The notes under the pieces: generated by a model | Databases searched by the model: none | Seen by the model: the letters and a program-made list of their open reading frames with translations, nothing else | Told to the model about the DNA's origin: nothing | Origin: Phenylobacterium sp. | GTDB taxonomy: Bacteria > Pseudomonadota > Alphaproteobacteria > Caulobacterales > Caulobacteraceae | DNA length: 36,646 bases | Reading direction: 5' to 3' | Assembly: GCF_031181185.1 (NCBI RefSeq) | Contig: NZ_JAPSKZ010000014.1 | Span: 1-36,646, forward strand | Part shown: in pieces, positions 8,890 through 33,482 of the stretch | Layout of the letters: each line of letters starts with the position of its first letter | Position numbering within the stretch: the first letter of the stretch is position 1 | Made by a program: the position numbers and the translations under genes

Positions 8890-9653
8890 GCGCCGAACCG
8901 CGCCTCGAGCCGCCGCGCCTGGCGCAGCGGCGCCTCGAGCAAGGCGCGCACGTCAGGATCGGCGGCCTGGGACAGGAGCTCAGCCGGCGCGCCGTCGGCG
9001 AGGATGCGCCCCTCCTTCAGCACCACCACGCGGTCGGCGAGCAGCACCGCCTCGGCTATGTCGTGGGTGACCATGAGGGTGGTCACGCCCAGCCGCTCGT
9101 GCAGGGCGCGGTAGTCGGCGCCCAGCGGCTCGCGGATGATGGGATCGAGGGCGCCGAAGGGCTCGTCCATCAGAACCAGCGGCGGCTCGCCGGCGAGCGC
9201 GCGGGCGACGCCCACCCGCTGGCGCTGGCCGCCCGAGAGCGCGGCGGGCAGGCGGTCCTTCACCTCGACCGGGAGCCCGACGAGTTGCAGCAGCTCCGCC
9301 GTCCGGGCGACGATACGCTCGGTCGGCCAGTCCAGCAGCGCCGGCACGACGGCGATGTTCTCGGCCACCGTGCGGTGCGGGAAGAGGCCGATCTCCTGGA
9401 AGACGTAGCCGATCCGGCGGCGCAGGACGTGCGGCCGGGCGGCCCGCGCCACGTCCTCGCCCAGCACGGCGACGTGGCCGGCGTCGGGGCGGATCAGGCC
9501 GTTGAGCGTCTTGAGCAGCGTGGTCTTGCCCGAACCCGAGCCGCCGACCAGCGCCACGAATTCACCCGGACCGACCGTCAGGCCGATGCCGTCGAGGGCG
9601 GGCCGCCCTCCGTACCGCTTGCAGACGCCCTCGAGGCGGATCACCGGCTGCAT
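8886..9653 (-). CDS. ABC transporter ATPase, betaine/choline (QAT) or EgtV-like
   Basis: Predicted 255-residue ATPase. Walker A GGSGSGKTTLL, Q-loop region VFQEIGLFPHRTVAENI, signature LSGGQRQRVGVARAL, Walker B PLVLMDEPFGALD and the H-loop THD are all intact. The sequence resembles OpuCA/OsmV/ProV-type ATPases but lacks the C-terminal CBS pair that longer members use for osmotic sensing. It is the promoter-proximal gene, overlapping the fused permease/binding protein by 4 bases. The substrate follows that of the partner: a quaternary amine or ergothioneine-like betaine. Confidence 0.92.
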   Translation of the reverse strand: MQPVIRLEGVCKRYGGRPALDGIGLTVGPGEFVALVGGSGSGKTTLLKTLNGLIRPDAGHVAVLGEDVARAARPHVLRRRIGYVFQEIGLFPHRTVAENIAVVPALLDWPTERIVARTAELLQLVGLPVEVKDRLPAALSGGQRQRVGVARALAGEPPLVLMDEPFGALDPIIREPLGADYRALHERLGVTTLMVTHDIAEAVLLADRVVVLKEGRILADGAPAELLSQAADPDVRALLEAPLRQARRLEARFGA

Positions 9654-9739
9654 CGCCTCAGCCGTAGCACGGTTCCGGGGTCCCCGCCGCCGCCGCGACG
9701 CGTTATGACGATCGCCTGGACAGTCCCATGGAGTATCCG

Positions 9740-10240
9740 ATGACCCGTTCCCTGATCGCGCTCGCCGCCCTTGCCGCCGTCGTCGCGGGCCCCGCCCAGG
9801 CCGAAAGCCTGACGGCCGACCTGAAGAACGGCGCAGGCGAGACCATCGGCAAGGCGACCCTGACCGAAGCGCCCAAGGGCGTGGTGATGCGCATCGAGGC
9901 CCGGGGCCTGACGCCCGGCTGGCACGGTCTGCACTTCCACGAGAAGGCGGACTGCTCGAAGTCGGACTTCACCAGCGCCGGCGCTCACACCCGCCACGGC
10001 GAGGGCAAGGCCGTGCACGGCCTGCTGAATCCGCAGGCCAACGAGACCGGCGACCTGCCGAACATCCACGCGGGGCAGGACGGCGCGGCCGCAGCCGAGG
10101 TCTATACCACCCTGACGACGCTGAAGGCCCTGCGCGACGCAGACGGCTCGGCGGTGCTGATCCACGCGAACGCCGACGACCACATGACCCAGCCCATCGG
10201 CGGCGCCGGCGCGCGGGTGGCGTGCGCGGTGGTGAAGTGA
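9740..10240 (+). CDS. sodC: Cu,Zn superoxide dismutase SodC, periplasmic
   Basis: Predicted 166-residue precursor. I chose ATG 9740 (MTRSLIALAALAAVVAGPAQA) because GGAG lies 6 bases upstream and a clean signal peptide with an AQA cleavage site follows; the track's start at 9728 adds only MEYP. Copper ligands are visible: HFH, the bridging His of SAGAH and the His of LIHANADD. The disulfide cysteines (KADC and ACAVV) are present. Of the zinc ligands, the His of AVHG and the Asp of GDLPN are present, but the third His (E. coli GHLGDLP) is Glu here (NETGDLP). It would convert superoxide to peroxide in the periplasm. It diverges from the ABC transporter and converges on fliE. Confidence 0.9.
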   Translation: MTRSLIALAALAAVVAGPAQAESLTADLKNGAGETIGKATLTEAPKGVVMRIEARGLTPGWHGLHFHEKADCSKSDFTSAGAHTRHGEGKAVHGLLNPQANETGDLPNIHAGQDGAAAAEVYTTLTTLKALRDADGSAVLIHANADDHMTQPIGGAGARVACAVVK

Positions 10241-28067: not shown

Positions 28068-28994
28068 TCACCCGTCCGCCAGGGCCCTCACATGCGCAAG
28101 CGCAGAGCGGCCCAGAGCTTCGAGGTCGTACCCGCCCTCGAGCGAGGAGACAACCCGACCCTTCGCATGACGGTCCGCGACAGAGACGACCGCCCGGGTG
28201 GCCCAGGCGAAGTCGGCCTCCTCCAGGCTTTGGCCGGCGCCGCCGATCGGGTCGCGGCGGTGGGCGTCGAAGCCGGCCGACACGATGACCAGGTCGGGCG
28301 CGAAGGCGTCCACCTGGCCCATCAACCCCTCGAAGGCCTGCCGCCAGGCCGCAGCCGGGGCGCCCGGCTCCACGACCGCGTTGGCGATGTTGCCCGCCAC
28401 ACTCTCGGACGGGTGGCCGGTGCCGGGCCACATCGGCCACTGCTGGATGGACGCCAGGAACAGACCATCCTGGCCCAGGAACGCCGCCTGGGTCCCGTTG
28501 CCGTGGTGGATGTCGAAGTCGACGACGGCGACCCGCTTCAGGCCCGCCGCCTGCGCGACCTTCGCCGCCACCGCCACGTTCGAGAAGATGCAGAAGCCCA
28601 TCGGCAAGCCAGGTTCGGCATGATGTCCAGGCGGGCGCACGGCGCAGAACGCCCGCTGGGCGCGGCCCGCCGCCACGTCGCGGACCGCCTTGACCGCCGC
28701 GCCGGCGGCGCGCCCGGCCGCGACGAGACTGCCGGCGGACATGTAGGTGTCTGGGTCCAGCTCGTGGATGTCGTGGGCGGGCGTCGCGGCGAAGATCCGT
28801 TCCAGGTGCGCCGCCCCGTGCACCCGGGCGAGATCGGCCTCTTCCACCAGCGGCGCATCGTTGGGGATCAGGGCGAGGTCGCCGGCGTCATCGAGGGCGT
28901 CGATGACCGCCCGCAGCCGCTCCGGCCGCTCGGGATGGCCCTCGCCCGGACGGTGGTCCAGCATGTCGACGTGTGTGTAGAGCGCGACGTCCAT
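28068..28994 (-). CDS. Histone deacetylase family protein (AcuC/acetylpolyamine amidohydrolase-like)
   Basis: Predicted 308-residue zinc hydrolase. The catalytic His pair is in RPPGHHAEP (H124, H125), and the zinc ligands are D161 and H163 in DFDIHHGNG and D243 in SAGFDAH. The N-terminal [11 protein letters not shown] and the C-terminal [15 protein letters not shown] (family EGGY motif) are complete, so the enzyme looks active. Bacterial members deacetylate small amines, polyamines or protein lysines (AcuC acts on acetyl-CoA synthetase); no acsA-type gene is adjacent. A GNAT acetyltransferase gene is divergent 62 bases away, but any pairing is speculation. Confidence 0.93.
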
Positions 28995-29056
28995 GGCGCC
29001 ATCCTACCGCAAACCGCGCCCGTCGCTTACATGAGGGTCATCGCAGGGGGCCTCCG

Positions 29057-29629
29057 ATGACCGAAGCCGTGATCCGCCGGGCGCATGCCGCCGACGCCGA
29101 GACCTTGGCCGCGCTGGGCGCGCGCACCTTCGTCGAGACCTTCGGCCACCTCTATCCGCGCGAGGACCTCCAAGCCTATCTGGCCGAAGCCTACAGCCTG
29201 GAGCGCACCCGGCGCGACCTGGCCGACGCCGCCAAGGCGTCGTGGCTGGTGGAGGTCGGCGGTGAGGCGATCGGCTATGCCTTGGCGGGCCCCTGCAGCC
29301 TGCCGCACGAGGAGGTCACGCCCCGCTGCGGCGAGCTGAAGCGGATCTATTTCCTGAAGACGGCCCAGGGCGGCGGCTTGGGCGCGCGGCTGTTCGCCCA
29401 GGTGATCGCCTGGCTGCAGGCCGACGGTCCACGGGACGTCTGGATCGGCGTCTGGTCCGAGAACCACGGGGCGCAGAAGTTCTACGCCCGCCACGGCTTC
29501 GAGAAGGTCGGCGGCTACGGCTTCCCGGTTGGTAGAACGGTGGATTCCGAGTTGATCCTCAGACGAAGGGCGGAAACCTTCGCTGCAATTTCGCCACAAT
29601 TGGTGTTCGACGAACAGACATCGGCCTGA
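29057..29629 (+). CDS. GNAT-family N-acetyltransferase
   Basis: Predicted 190-residue acetyltransferase. The acetyl-CoA-binding motif A is LKRIYFLKTAQGGGLGARLFAQVIAWL (QGGGLG as the Q/RxxGxG/A signature). Motif B follows as WIGVWSENHGAQKFYARHGFEKVGGYGF. The N-terminal part (RRAHAADAETLAALGARTFVETFG) fits the RimI-like fold. Start ATG 29057 has GGGGG 6 bases upstream; the track's 28-residue extension is antisense to the HDAC start. The substrate is unknown. It is divergent from the HDAC-family gene. Confidence 0.93.
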   Translation: MTEAVIRRAHAADAETLAALGARTFVETFGHLYPREDLQAYLAEAYSLERTRRDLADAAKASWLVEVGGEAIGYALAGPCSLPHEEVTPRCGELKRIYFLKTAQGGGLGARLFAQVIAWLQADGPRDVWIGVWSENHGAQKFYARHGFEKVGGYGFPVGRTVDSELILRRRAETFAAISPQLVFDEQTSA

Positions 29630-29695
29630 GACAGCTCTGCGCGGGTCCGATTGTTGCGGAGATTTAACCTAGCGCCACCTTCCCGCGAACCTCTG

Positions 29696-29719
29696 CTTCT
29701 GAGAACCTGTAATCAGAAG
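29696..29719. repeat. Perfect inverted repeat CTTCTGA-N10-TCAGAAG
   Basis: A 7-bp perfect inverted repeat with a 10-base spacer ends 26 bases before the preferred ATG of the degenerate resolvase-like gene. Dyads of this length are typical operators, and resolvases bind dyad half-sites. It could alternatively be a weak stem-loop at the end of the GNAT transcript (67 bases after its stop), although there is no T-tract. Confidence 0.55.
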
Positions 29720-29745: not shown

Positions 29746-30246
29746 ATGCTCAAGATCGGCTATGTTCGGTTCGGCGAGCAGGACCAGCACGAGCAGGTTT
29801 CGACCCTCGAAGCCCTCGGCTGCCAGGTGATCCGCACCGAGGAAACCCTCGCCGAGGGCGTCGGCTCGCCCGTCCTGGCGTCGATCCTCGACTTCATCGC
29901 CGCCGGCGACCAGCTGATTGTCACCCGCCTGGAGCACCTGGCCGCGTCCAGCCGCGAACTTCTGGATGTGGTGGCGCGCCTCGAGGCGCGCGGGGCCAGC
30001 CTCTATGTGGCGGACGCGGGTGTCAGCACCCAGGGGGAAGGCGGTCGCGCCCTGCGGGCGGTGCTGGAGGCCGTGGGCTCCTTCGACAGCGAAACCTCGG
30101 GACGGCGGCGGCGCGCCACCGCCGAGGCCCAGCAGATCCGGGCGCTGCGGCGCGCGGGCATCGGCCCCGTCGAGATCGCCCGGCGCCTCGGCGTCTCGCG
30201 CATGACGGTGTGGCGCAAGCTGCGCGAGATGGAGGCGCAAGCCTAG
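29746..30246 (+). CDS. Degenerate serine-recombinase (resolvase-like) protein lacking the catalytic Ser
   Basis: Predicted 166-residue protein with the fold order of Tn3/gamma-delta resolvases: N-terminal MLKIGYVR, the RLEHLAASSRELLDVVARLEARGASLYVADAGVST core, and a C-terminal HTH (GIGPVEIARRLGVSRMTVWRKL). Alignment by eye with Tn3 resolvase puts Gly at the nucleophile position S10 (YVRFGEQDQ against YARVSTSQQ), His at R68 and Ala at R71. The long E helix between core and HTH is shortened by about 20 residues. Cleavage activity is therefore not expected; a DNA-binding or regulatory role is inferred. I prefer ATG 29746 over GTG 29719 because it matches the family start and has GAGGG upstream. 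It ends in a CTAG shared with the LysR stop. Confidence 0.8.
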   Translation: MLKIGYVRFGEQDQHEQVSTLEALGCQVIRTEETLAEGVGSPVLASILDFIAAGDQLIVTRLEHLAASSRELLDVVARLEARGASLYVADAGVSTQGEGGRALRAVLEAVGSFDSETSGRRRRATAEAQQIRALRRAGIGPVEIARRLGVSRMTVWRKLREMEAQA

Positions 30247-31142
30247 GCTCCGCGCCGGCTCGCCTGCACGAAGTCCACGAACGCGCGCAACGGCGACGGC
30301 ATTGTCCGGCGGCTGGGATAGTAGAGGAACGGCGCCGGGAAGACCTCGGACCAGTCGGCCAGGACCTCCACCAGACGGCCGCTCGCCAGGTGCGGTTCGG
30401 CATAGCCGTCGAAGGTCGGCAGGAAGCCCAGTCCTTCCAGCGCCGCGCGCATGAGCAGCGCGGCGTTCGTCGACGTGATCGGGCCCGTCGGAGAGATGCG
30501 CAGCGTCTCGCCGCGGCGTTCGAACTCCCACGGCGGCTCCGCCCCGCTCGGGAAGCGCACCCGCAGGCACGGCAGCCGCAACAGGTCGCGCGGATGCTCG
30601 GGCCATCCCACGCGGGCGATCAGCTCGGGCGAGGCCACGACGGCATAGCGCTGGGGCGGGCCCAGCGACACGGCGACCATGTCCTGGGCCAGGCTCTCGC
30701 CCCAGCGGACGCCCGCGTCGTACCCCGCGGCCACGATGTCGACGAGGCTGGCTTCGATCGTGAGCTCGAGGCGCACGGCCGGATAGGCCTTGAGGAACGC
30801 GGTCAGCAACGGGGCCAGGAACAGGTCCACCGCCGGCTCAGGCGCGTTGATCCGCAGGGCGCCGGCGGGCTCGGCTTGGGCGGAGCGCGCCTCGGCCACC
30901 GCCTCGCCGATCTCGACCAGCGCCGGCTGCAGGCGGGCCAGCAGCGCGGCGCCCGCATCCGTGAGGGCGACGCTGCGGGTCGTACGGTTCAGCAGACGGA
31001 CGCCCAGCTGGGCCTCCAGCTCGCGTAGCGTGGCGCTCAGGGTCGACGCCGACACGCCCCGCTCGACGGCGGCGCGCCGGAAGTTCCGGTGTCGCGCGAT
31101 GGCCGCGAAGCTGTCGAGGGCGGCAAGGTCCAGCCGGTCCAT
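30243..31142 (-). CDS. LysR-family transcriptional regulator
   Basis: Predicted 299-residue regulator. An N-terminal winged HTH (about 1-60: LDSFAAIARHRNFRRAAVERGVSASTLSATLRELEAQLGVRLLNRTTRSVALTDAG) is followed by a LysR substrate-binding domain beginning GALRINAPEPAVDLFLAPLLTAFLKAYPAVRLEL, of the CrgA/PBP2 type. ATG 31142 matches the family start; the track's upstream TTG adds an atypical 11 residues. There is no Shine-Dalgarno and a dyad operator begins 10 bases upstream, so the gene is probably autoregulated. It diverges from the aldo/keto reductase, the usual arrangement for a LysR target. Confidence 0.92.
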   Translation of the reverse strand: MDRLDLAALDSFAAIARHRNFRRAAVERGVSASTLSATLRELEAQLGVRLLNRTTRSVALTDAGAALLARLQPALVEIGEAVAEARSAQAEPAGALRINAPEPAVDLFLAPLLTAFLKAYPAVRLELTIEASLVDIVAAGYDAGVRWGESLAQDMVAVSLGPPQRYAVVASPELIARVGWPEHPRDLLRLPCLRVRFPSGAEPPWEFERRGETLRISPTGPITSTNAALLMRAALEGLGFLPTFDGYAEPHLASGRLVEVLADWSEVFPAPFLYYPSRRTMPSPLRAFVDFVQASRRGA

Positions 31143-31151
31143 TGTTCGGAT

Positions 31152-31172
31152 TTCCGCACAGTTCGTGCGGAA
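31152..31172. promoter_or_regulatory. Dyad operator TTCCGCAC-N5-GTGCGGAA between LysR and aldo/keto reductase genes
   Basis: An 8-bp perfect inverted repeat with a 5-base spacer sits 10 bases before the LysR ATG. The right arm extends to GTGCGGAACAAT, whose complement partly recurs as ATTGTTC further left (31141-31147). The dyad contains a T-N11-A core as in LysR boxes. It could overlap the -35 of the reductase promoter (a GATTAT -10-like element lies at 31179-31184), so it may control both genes. Confidence 0.65.
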
Positions 31173-31235
31173 CAATGCCGATTATCGCGAGCAATTCCCA
31201 GGCCTAGCTTTCGTGCACAACCACGGAGGCGAACG

Positions 31236-32228
31236 ATGCAGACGCGCAAGCTTGGAACCACTGGTCCCACGGTCTCGGCCCTTGGCCTGGGCTGCATGGG
31301 CATGTCGGACATGTACGGCCCGGCCGACCGCGCCGAGAGCCTGGCCACCATCGACGCGGCGGTGGAGGCTGGGATCACCCTGCTGGACACCGGCGACTTC
31401 TACGGCATGGGCCACAACGAGATGCTGATCGGCGAGGCGCTGAAGCGCCACCGCCGCGACGACCTGGTGCTGAGCGTGAAGTTCGGCGCGCTGCGCGGGC
31501 CGGACGGCGCCTTCCTGGGCTACGACGCCCGGCCCATCGCGGTGAGGAGCGCCCTGGCCTATTCCCTGCGCCGCCTGGGCGTGGACCACATCGACGTCTA
31601 CCGGCCCTCGCGCCTGGACCCGAGCGTGCCGATCGAGGACACGATCGGGGCGCTCGCCGAGCTGGTGCAGGCCGGCTACGTCCGCCACATCGGGCTGTCC
31701 GAAGTGGGATCCGAGACGATCCGCCGTGCGGCCCAGGTCCACCCGATCAGCGACCTCCAGATCGAATACAGCCTGCTGTCGCGCGGCATCGAGGACGGCA
31801 TCCTGCAGACCTGCCGCGAGCTGGGCGTCGGGATCACCGCCTATGGCGTGCTCTCGCGGGGACTGATCGGCGGCCACATGAGCGCCGCCCCGTCGGGCCG
31901 CGACTTCCGGGCGATGAGCCCGCGCTTCCAGGGCGAGAACCTGGAGAAGAACCTGCAGCTGGCCGAGGCGCTGCGCACCGCGGCCCAAGCGGCGGGGGTG
32001 ACGCCGGCGCAGGCGGCGATCGCCTGGGCGGCGTCACGCGGCGACGACATCGTCCCCCTGGTCGGCGCGCGCCGCCGCGAACGGCTGGCCGAGGCCCTCG
32101 GCGCGCTGGAGGCGAAGCTGTCGCCCGAAGCGCTCGCCAGCATCGAGGCGGCCGTGCCGAAGGGCGCGGCGTCGGGGGAGCGCTACCCGACGCAGCAGAT
32201 GGCCATGCTGGACAGCGAGCGCGCCTGA
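31236..32228 (+). CDS. Aldo/keto reductase with altered catalytic tetrad
   Basis: Predicted 330-residue TIM-barrel oxidoreductase. KLGTTGPTVSALGLGCMGMSDMYG is the AKR N-terminus; D51 and Y56 are in DTGDFYG and K82 is in SVKFGAL. The usual His, expected in a YYQHRVDP context, is replaced by S125 (VYRPSRLDPSVPIEDT). The NADPH-binding end (PLVGARRRERLAEALGALE) is intact. It probably reduces carbonyls with NADPH, but the His-to-Ser change makes activity uncertain. GGAGG lies 6 bases before the ATG. It is divergent from a LysR gene and shares a dyad operator with it. Confidence 0.9.
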   Translation: MQTRKLGTTGPTVSALGLGCMGMSDMYGPADRAESLATIDAAVEAGITLLDTGDFYGMGHNEMLIGEALKRHRRDDLVLSVKFGALRGPDGAFLGYDARPIAVRSALAYSLRRLGVDHIDVYRPSRLDPSVPIEDTIGALAELVQAGYVRHIGLSEVGSETIRRAAQVHPISDLQIEYSLLSRGIEDGILQTCRELGVGITAYGVLSRGLIGGHMSAAPSGRDFRAMSPRFQGENLEKNLQLAEALRTAAQAAGVTPAQAAIAWAASRGDDIVPLVGARRRERLAEALGALEAKLSPEALASIEAAVPKGAASGERYPTQQMAMLDSERA

Positions 32229-32306: not shown

Positions 32307-33482
32307 ATGTTCATGCGCTTCTTCACCGAGCTGCGCGAGGCCAAGGTGCCCGTGACGCTGAAGGAGTACCTCGCCCTGATGGAGGGCCTGGACAAGGGCG
32401 TCATCGACCGCTCGGTGGACGACTTCTACTACCTGTCGCGCGCCGCACTGGTGAAGGACGAGAAGAACCTCGACAAGTTCGACCGGGTGTTCGGCCACGT
32501 CTTCAAGGGGCTGGAGCGGGTCGACGACGGGGTCACCGCCGACATCCCGGCCGAGTGGCTGAAGAAGATCTCCGAGAAATTCCTCACCGAGGAGGAGAAG
32601 GCGCAGATCGAGGCCATGGGCGGCTTCGAGAAGCTGATGGAAGCCCTGGCCGAGCGCATCCGCGAGCAGAAGGAGCGCCACGAGGGCGGCAACAAGATGA
32701 TCGGCACCGGCGGCACCTCGCCGTTCGGCGCTAACGGCTACAATCCCGAAGGCGTCCGCATCGGCCAGGACAAGGGCCGGCACGGCAAGGCCATCAAGGT
32801 GTGGGACAAGCGCGAGTACAAGAACCTGGACGACCAGGTCGAGCTCGGCACCCGGAACATCAAGGTCGCCCTGCGCCGCCTGCGCAAATGGGTCCGCGAC
32901 GGCGCCCCCGAAGAGCTGGACCTGGATGGCACGATCAAGGGCACGGCCGAGAAGGGCTACCTGGACATCCACCTGCGTCCCGAGCGCCGCAACAAGATCA
33001 GCGTCCTGATCTTCTTCGACATCGGCGGCTCGATGGACAGCCACATCAAGGTCTGCGAGGAGCTGTTCAGCGCCGCGCGCTCCGAGTTCAAGAACATGGA
33101 GTTCTATTACTTCCACAACTGCCTCTACGAGGCGGTCTGGAAGGACAACCGCCGGCGGCACGCCGAGAAGATCCCGACCTGGGACGTGCTCCACAAGTTC
33201 CCGCACGACTACAAGATCATCTTCGTGGGCGACGCCACGATGAGCCCCTACGAGATCACCTATCCGGGCGGGTCGGTGGAGCACTGGAACGAGGAGGCCG
33301 GCGCCGTCTGGCTGGACCGGGTGACCCAGATCTACGAGCGCGTGGTGTGGCTGAACCCGACCGCCGAGCGGCACTGGGACTACACGCCCTCGATCGGCGT
33401 GATCAAACAGCTGGTCGGCGACCGGATGTTCCCGCTGACGATCGAAGGGCTGGAGAAGGCGATGCGCGAGCTGGCCCGCTGA
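32307..33482 (+). CDS. VWA-domain protein, CoxE-like
   Basis: Predicted 391-residue cytoplasmic protein. The N-terminal half (MFMRFFTELREAKVPVTLKEYLALMEGLDKGV...FYYLSRAALVKDEKNLDKFDRVFGHVF) is the CoxE-like region. The C-terminal VWA domain has a metal-ion site, VLIFFDIGGSMDSH (DxGxS variant of DxSxS), near residue 235. The middle is basic/Gly-rich (MIGTGGTSPFGANGYNPEGVRIGQ). CoxE proteins usually act with a MoxR AAA+ ATPase as a chaperone pair for metal-enzyme or complex maturation; no moxR is next to this gene in the window. GAAGGCGGA precedes the ATG. No signal peptide. Confidence 0.88.
   Translation: MFMRFFTELREAKVPVTLKEYLALMEGLDKGVIDRSVDDFYYLSRAALVKDEKNLDKFDRVFGHVFKGLERVDDGVTADIPAEWLKKISEKFLTEEEKAQIEAMGGFEKLMEALAERIREQKERHEGGNKMIGTGGTSPFGANGYNPEGVRIGQDKGRHGKAIKVWDKREYKNLDDQVELGTRNIKVALRRLRKWVRDGAPEELDLDGTIKGTAEKGYLDIHLRPERRNKISVLIFFDIGGSMDSHIKVCEELFSAARSEFKNMEFYYFHNCLYEAVWKDNRRRHAEKIPTWDVLHKFPHDYKIIFVGDATMSPYEITYPGGSVEHWNEEAGAVWLDRVTQIYERVVWLNPTAERHWDYTPSIGVIKQLVGDRMFPLTIEGLEKAMRELAR

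Follow-up and report, generated by a model that had tools for sequence, protein, structure and literature searches.

A Resolvase-Family Protein of Phenylobacterium That Has Lost Its Catalytic Residues and Probably Serves as a Site-Specific DNA-Binding Regulator

Introduction

Serine recombinases are usually known as enzymes that cut DNA. In the gamma-delta resolvase, helix E is about 35 residues long, with its N-terminal half forming the dimer interface; the Tn3 resolvases, for their part, use res to control their own gene. Beyond this group of enzymes, TnpB nucleases are the origin of certain RNA-guided regulators. Poxvirus F16 is described in PMC11980589, with reference to Senkevich et al. 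(2011), as a serine recombinase predicted to be catalytically inactive. A search of the literature found no bacterial lineage of fixed non-catalytic resolvases for which selection and promoter evidence were presented, and nothing on the Phenylobacterium case or on a bacterial regulator of the dead-resolvase type.

In this article, a protein of this kind is analyzed in a stretch of 36,646 nucleotides from Phenylobacterium sp. (contig NZ_JAPSKZ010000014.1), referred to below as the window. The protein shares with small serine recombinases the Resolvase N-terminal fold and the C-terminal HTH_7 domain, while Ser10, R45 and R71, and the long helix E are absent.

29746..30246, + strand: resolvase-family protein of 166 aa, predicted to be catalytically dead (translation, Pfam, AlphaFold model, and orthologue alignment), comprising a resolvase-type N-domain at residues 1-112, a short Arg-rich linker, and an HTH at about residues 128-161

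Protein Architecture and Catalytic Positions

The reading frame runs through 166 codons without a stop, and its translation matches the Pfam families Resolvase (E 8.5e-15) and HTH_7 (PF02796, E 6.9e-9), both beyond the curated cut-offs. The sequence relatives with solved structures are the Tn3 and gamma-delta resolvases, a DNA invertase, and Sin. An AlphaFold model built from 24 orthologues, with a mean pLDDT of 85, resembles the catalytic domain of gamma-delta resolvase (2rsl_A) with a TM of 0.84 over the target and an rmsd of 2.0 A. In the alignment of the catalytic positions to gamma-delta resolvase, R8 is kept, while S10 is replaced by Gly, D36 by Thr, R45 by Ser, R68 by His, and R71 by Ala. 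A preliminary description of this DNA had proposed a resolvase fold without the catalytic serine, with Gly, His, and Ala at positions 10, 68, and 71, the R45 region not conserved, and the C-terminal HTH intact, and the present data agree with it on all of these points. With the catalytic serine and most of the catalytic arginines missing from the alignment, the protein is, as judged from its residues, not classed as a working serine recombinase. Assignment to the IS607-type serine transposases was also rejected, the HTH being C-terminal here and not N-terminal ahead of the catalytic domain.

The protein is approximately 20 aa shorter than gamma-delta/Tn3-type resolvases, the difference lying in helix E and the linker. 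In the model, helix E spans residues 97-111 and is followed by the Arg-rich linker, modeled with low confidence, and then by the HTH. The N-terminal half of the helix carries G97, G100, L103, A105, L107, A109, and V110, which are invariant in the orthologue alignment, and since this is the dimer half, the part that was lost would be the minor-groove arm. The earlier statement that helix E is cut is thereby correct as to the length, but only the C-terminal half is missing and the dimer-forming half is kept.

Orthologues, Selection, and Ancestry

Of 60 Phenylobacterium genomes, 46 contain a close orthologue (E of 1e-30 or lower) and 14 do not have the gene; a scan of named genomes provided 77 loci, including those of the cultured P. 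kunshanense, P. aquaticum, P. haematophilum, and P. deserti. Of 65 intact orthologues, 55 have Arg at position 10 and none has Ser, indicating that no replacement serine has arisen at this site; Gly is a peculiarity of the 166-aa protein, and the idea that G10 is fixed had to be abandoned. At the other positions, D36 is mostly Pro, R45 is lost, R68 is kept as Arg in 17 and is His or Gln in most, R71 is kept in three, and R119 has become Pro in 60 of the 65. The HTH sequence GPVEIARRLGVSRMTVWRKL is nearly invariant. On the basis of these residues, the loss of catalysis is a fixed trait of the orthologue family.

For 11 close orthologue pairs, dN/dS is 0.089 overall, with 0.086 in the N-domain, 0.220 in the linker, and 0.033 in the HTH; these pairs were used in place of distant ones, whose values (median 0.32) were discarded for near-saturated synonymous sites. 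Both the N-domain and the HTH are under purifying selection, and the N-domain is therefore still needed, though apparently unable to cut. The few copies that look frameshifted or truncated (L084, L094, and L106) are all from MAG or long-read draft contigs. The family does not consist of random frameshifted remnants, and the open frame without decay that had been noted for this gene extends to the 65 copies compared.

In a tree of 54 proteins, the 40 dead proteins, among them paralogues and members from a sister genus, constitute one side of a branch with a support of 100/99, which is consistent with a single loss of catalysis, the placement of the long branches L099, L105, and L168 being less certain. 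The closest active relatives are L155 and L170 (support 94/77, not starred). The ancestor of the gene is a small serine recombinase. Other origins were considered and rejected: plasmid matches remain below 60% identity (best listed 41.6%) and are annotated as ordinary recombinases, viral contigs yielded just short HTH matches, and the search for a link to defence systems gave weak HTH matches and nothing else.

Some Phenylobacterium genomes additionally encode paralogues without catalytic residues (L096-L099 and L168), situated at other loci behind different promoters. Homologues in a sister genus (L102, L103, L154, and L156-L158) are dead as well, with GNAT still adjacent, and the identity of L102 and L103 to the dead resolvase is about 36%. 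The sole other resolvase-domain protein seen in the own genome (L171, G000:C166:9998-10234, 148 aa as read) starts mid-domain and has a divergent HTH with no clear resolvase HTH; it is possibly another non-catalytic lineage.

Genomic Locus and Inheritance

The gene has an HDAC-GNAT pair on one side and a VWA gene on the other, the features being as follows.

28068..28994, - strand: histone-deacetylase-superfamily gene (HDAC), linkage conserved
28973..29629, + strand: GNAT acetyltransferase, the upstream neighbor, with the first GTG taken as start (the real one may lie further inside), linkage conserved with the sister genus included
32307..33482, + strand: VWA/CoxE-like gene, directly after GNAT in most genomes without the dead resolvase

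About 65 of the 77 named-genome loci display the order dxs, polyprenyl synthetase, His-phosphatase (-), HDAC (-), GNAT (+), and dead resolvase (+), and in the sister genus the dead resolvase stands beside GNAT despite an inverted HDAC-dxs block. The gene is vertically inherited at one chromosomal locus. Genomes without it represent natural empty sites: GNAT is retained in all 16 such Phenylobacterium genomes examined and in most of them runs directly into the VWA/CoxE-like gene, recognized by its start MFMRFFTELR..., and neither the promoter element described below nor a gene remnant was detected downstream of GNAT in the 16, which indicates that the gene and its promoter are gained or lost as one unit.

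Downstream in the window comes a LysR gene in convergent orientation, which makes the dead-resolvase gene monocistronic here. Separating the dead resolvase from the VWA gene, the segment at 30243-32228 contains this LysR regulator and an aldo/keto reductase, and it looks like a variable insertion spot, since homologues of the two occur in only about 20 of the 77 loci.

The Promoter and Its Conserved Element

Upstream of the gene, the following features were delineated.

29653..29668, + strand: promoter element GTTGCGGAGATTTAAC, with one mismatch to the consensus ATTGCNNNGATTTAAC (conservation across 68 orthologues)
29680..29685, + strand: putative -35 box TTCCCG, 11 bp past the element (TTG[AG]CG in most orthologues)
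29703..29708, + strand: putative -10 box GAACCT after a 17-bp spacer, fitting xAxxxT
29696..29719, no strand: dyad CTTCTGA-N10-TCAGAAG with 7-bp perfect arms, overlapping the putative -10 box, lineage-specific

The consensus ATTGCNNNGATTTAAC is matched upstream of the 68 orthologues at 13 of 13 positions in 44, at 12 in 19, at 11 in three, and at 10 and 9 in one each, giving at least 10 of 13 in 67. The gap from the element to the -35 box is 10-11 bp in 67 of the 68, TTG is found at -35 in 65, the spacer between the boxes is 17 bp in 58, and the -10 box conforms to xAxxxT in 60. With the center of the element near -54, this fixed spacing to the -35 box suggests that the factor bound there contacts RNA polymerase. 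The element contains no evident dyad, which a symmetric dimer would prefer.

Exact matches of ATTGCNNNGATTTAAC number 40 in 80 Phenylobacterium genomes, of which about 39 lie at this promoter. Thirty were read as loci, 27 of them reaching the orthologue start after 79-98 bp and the other three being at the orthologue by coordinates; most of the unread matches are also at the orthologue by coordinates, with G102, G109, and G110 unchecked and G015 somewhat further upstream. Outside Phenylobacterium, two matches occur in about 190 genomes. The CtrA box, which is TTAA-N7-TTAA, was rejected as the identity of the element, whose first half is ATTG, with each position fixed at 94-100%, and which is nearly unique as a site. 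The sole exact match elsewhere in the own genome (G000:C119:5692-5707) lies between genes for a TonB-dependent receptor and a carboxylesterase-like protein; by an estimate from base composition, it is at about the chance level, with roughly one expected over 80 genomes.

The dyad had been put forward in the preliminary description as a candidate binding site. It is real in the window, with perfect arms, but it is not conserved across the 68 orthologues, in whose -62 to -12 regions inverted repeats are at the chance level (mean z 0.016), and a role as operator was consequently rejected. The conserved element lies about 45 bp upstream of it.

A Related Motif before a Membrane-Protein Gene

When the element was used to look for a regulon in Phenylobacterium genomes, matches away from the gene itself, exact or with one mismatch, were few and near the control rate. 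Those that recur lie at the promoter of a 146-aa membrane protein and, in two genomes, at that of a lipoprotein-like protein of about 490 aa; one of these two genomes lacks the resolvase. The motif before the membrane-protein gene reads [AG]TTGC-N6-TTAAC, in fuller form [AG]TTGCAATA[GC][AT]TTAAC, and it is kept in G034 (as GTTGCAGAACTTTAAC) and G041, both without the dead resolvase. In G008, G013, and G046 it has become CTTTC, while the resolvase element is still ATTGC, which shows that the resolvase element TTGCNNNGATTTAAC and the motif TTGCAATA[GC][AT]TTAAC are distinct and change independently. Given this persistence without the resolvase and this independent divergence, the alternatives are that the motifs have no relation to each other or that both are recognized by another factor. 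The dead resolvase does co-occur with the membrane protein, but both are missing mainly from small genomes, so that shared ancestry also accounts for the co-occurrence.

The membrane protein (L219-L248 in Phenylobacterium; G000:C121 near 9414-9872 in the own genome) has no Pfam match. The upstream block of its gene, [AG]TTGCAATA[GC][AT]TTAACTGG, is conserved; after it comes a long inverted repeat, nearly perfect (e.g., GCGCCCCTAAT...TTAGGGGCGC), which extends up to the start codon and may act as an operator or form a hairpin in the RNA.

Probable Function and Alternative Explanations

The fixed loss of catalysis, the purifying selection, and the inheritance at one locus together argue for a function other than recombination, likely DNA binding; the preliminary description had likewise proposed a function retained without recombination, and this is the best reading of the evidence. 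The protein is accordingly regarded, with a probability of roughly 0.6, as a domesticated serine resolvase, which has ceased to cut and now acts as a site-specific DNA-binding regulator, and DNA binding in a regulatory role would be its most likely function. The N-domain would dimerize by means of what remains of helix E, placing two HTHs on the DNA, which, with the helix-E arm and the active site gone, would be bound without cleavage or strand exchange. With less certainty, the protein may regulate its own gene by way of the element near -54, much as Tn3 resolvase uses res, and it may have further targets beyond its own promoter. Autoregulation is possible by this analogy, and the near uniqueness of the element together with the Tn3 precedent makes it attractive. 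A more specific scenario, to be held tentatively at somewhat less than even odds, is that a resolvase lineage was converted once into a dedicated autoregulated transcription factor, having lost catalysis and the helix-E arm, kept the dimer core and HTH, and acquired a new asymmetric operator phase-fixed to RNA polymerase.

The element may nevertheless belong to a factor other than the dead resolvase, because a related motif persists at a second promoter in genomes without the resolvase. The protein would then still be a non-catalytic DNA-binding regulator with its own targets elsewhere, and the -54 site, in an activator-like, helically fixed position, would serve a different activating factor, to which the TTGC-N6-TTAAC motif before the membrane-protein gene also points. 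This explanation is considered unlikely, given that the full element is practically unique per genome, which is unusual for a separate regulator, and that the resolvase element and the membrane-protein motif differ and do not change jointly.

The remaining explanations differ more fundamentally from a domesticated regulator. The retained dimer half of helix E and the presence of active relatives in some of the same genomes, such as G018 (L170) and G044 (L163), would fit a protein that regulates active serine recombinases or acts as their dominant-negative partner, via mixed dimers or site occupancy; such a role is quite improbable, as active relatives occur sporadically, in contrast to a dead gene that is widespread and passed on vertically, and the only other resolvase-domain protein of the own genome has no clear resolvase HTH. 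The nucleoid or replicon factor of the preliminary description, an architectural or maintenance protein in keeping with a DNA-binding fold without catalysis encoded chromosomally and mostly in single copy, did not gain support and is judged very improbable: a repeated genomic site was searched for in Phenylobacterium genomes and none was found, and a gene missing from 14 of 60 genomes is not essential. A decaying, functionless remnant of a transposon resolvase, suggested by the missing catalytic residues and the few broken-looking copies, is barely credible, being contradicted by the frame open in 65 orthologues, dN/dS of about 0.09, the conserved promoter, and the syntenic inheritance.

Comparison with Known Systems

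The Tn3/gamma-delta-type resolvases (PDB 5cy1, 1gdt, and 2rsl) share with the dead protein the N-terminal fold, R8, the N-terminal half of helix E, and the C-terminal HTH_7. They differ in that the dead protein lacks Ser10, D36, R45, and R71, its helix E and linker are about 20 residues shorter, its gene is not accompanied by a transposon, and the upstream element contains no evident res-type dyad. The active L155 and L170, from the same bacterial family, are nearest in the tree and have a similar HTH (GISRMTVYRE), but, unlike the dead family, they keep S10, R45, R68, R71, and a full helix E; upstream of them, several GTCAC/GTGAC repeats in inverted pairs form a res-like arrangement, in place of which the dead family has the ATTGC element. 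The lineage is a natural setting in which to ask which parts of a resolvase, among the dimer core, the arm, and the HTH, are enough to bind DNA sequence-specifically and to control transcription, and it advises caution with annotations as "recombinase family protein", which may conceal regulators.

Poxvirus F16 is, like the dead resolvase, a member of the resolvase superfamily that is predicted to be inactive and yet has been kept; it is viral and, in the account cited above, reported at the nucleoli of animal cells, and the likeness drawn here is one of description. TnpB-derived regulators, of unrelated fold and RNA-guided, have in common with the dead resolvase the probable course of its history, in which an enzyme of a mobile element is reused as a regulator.
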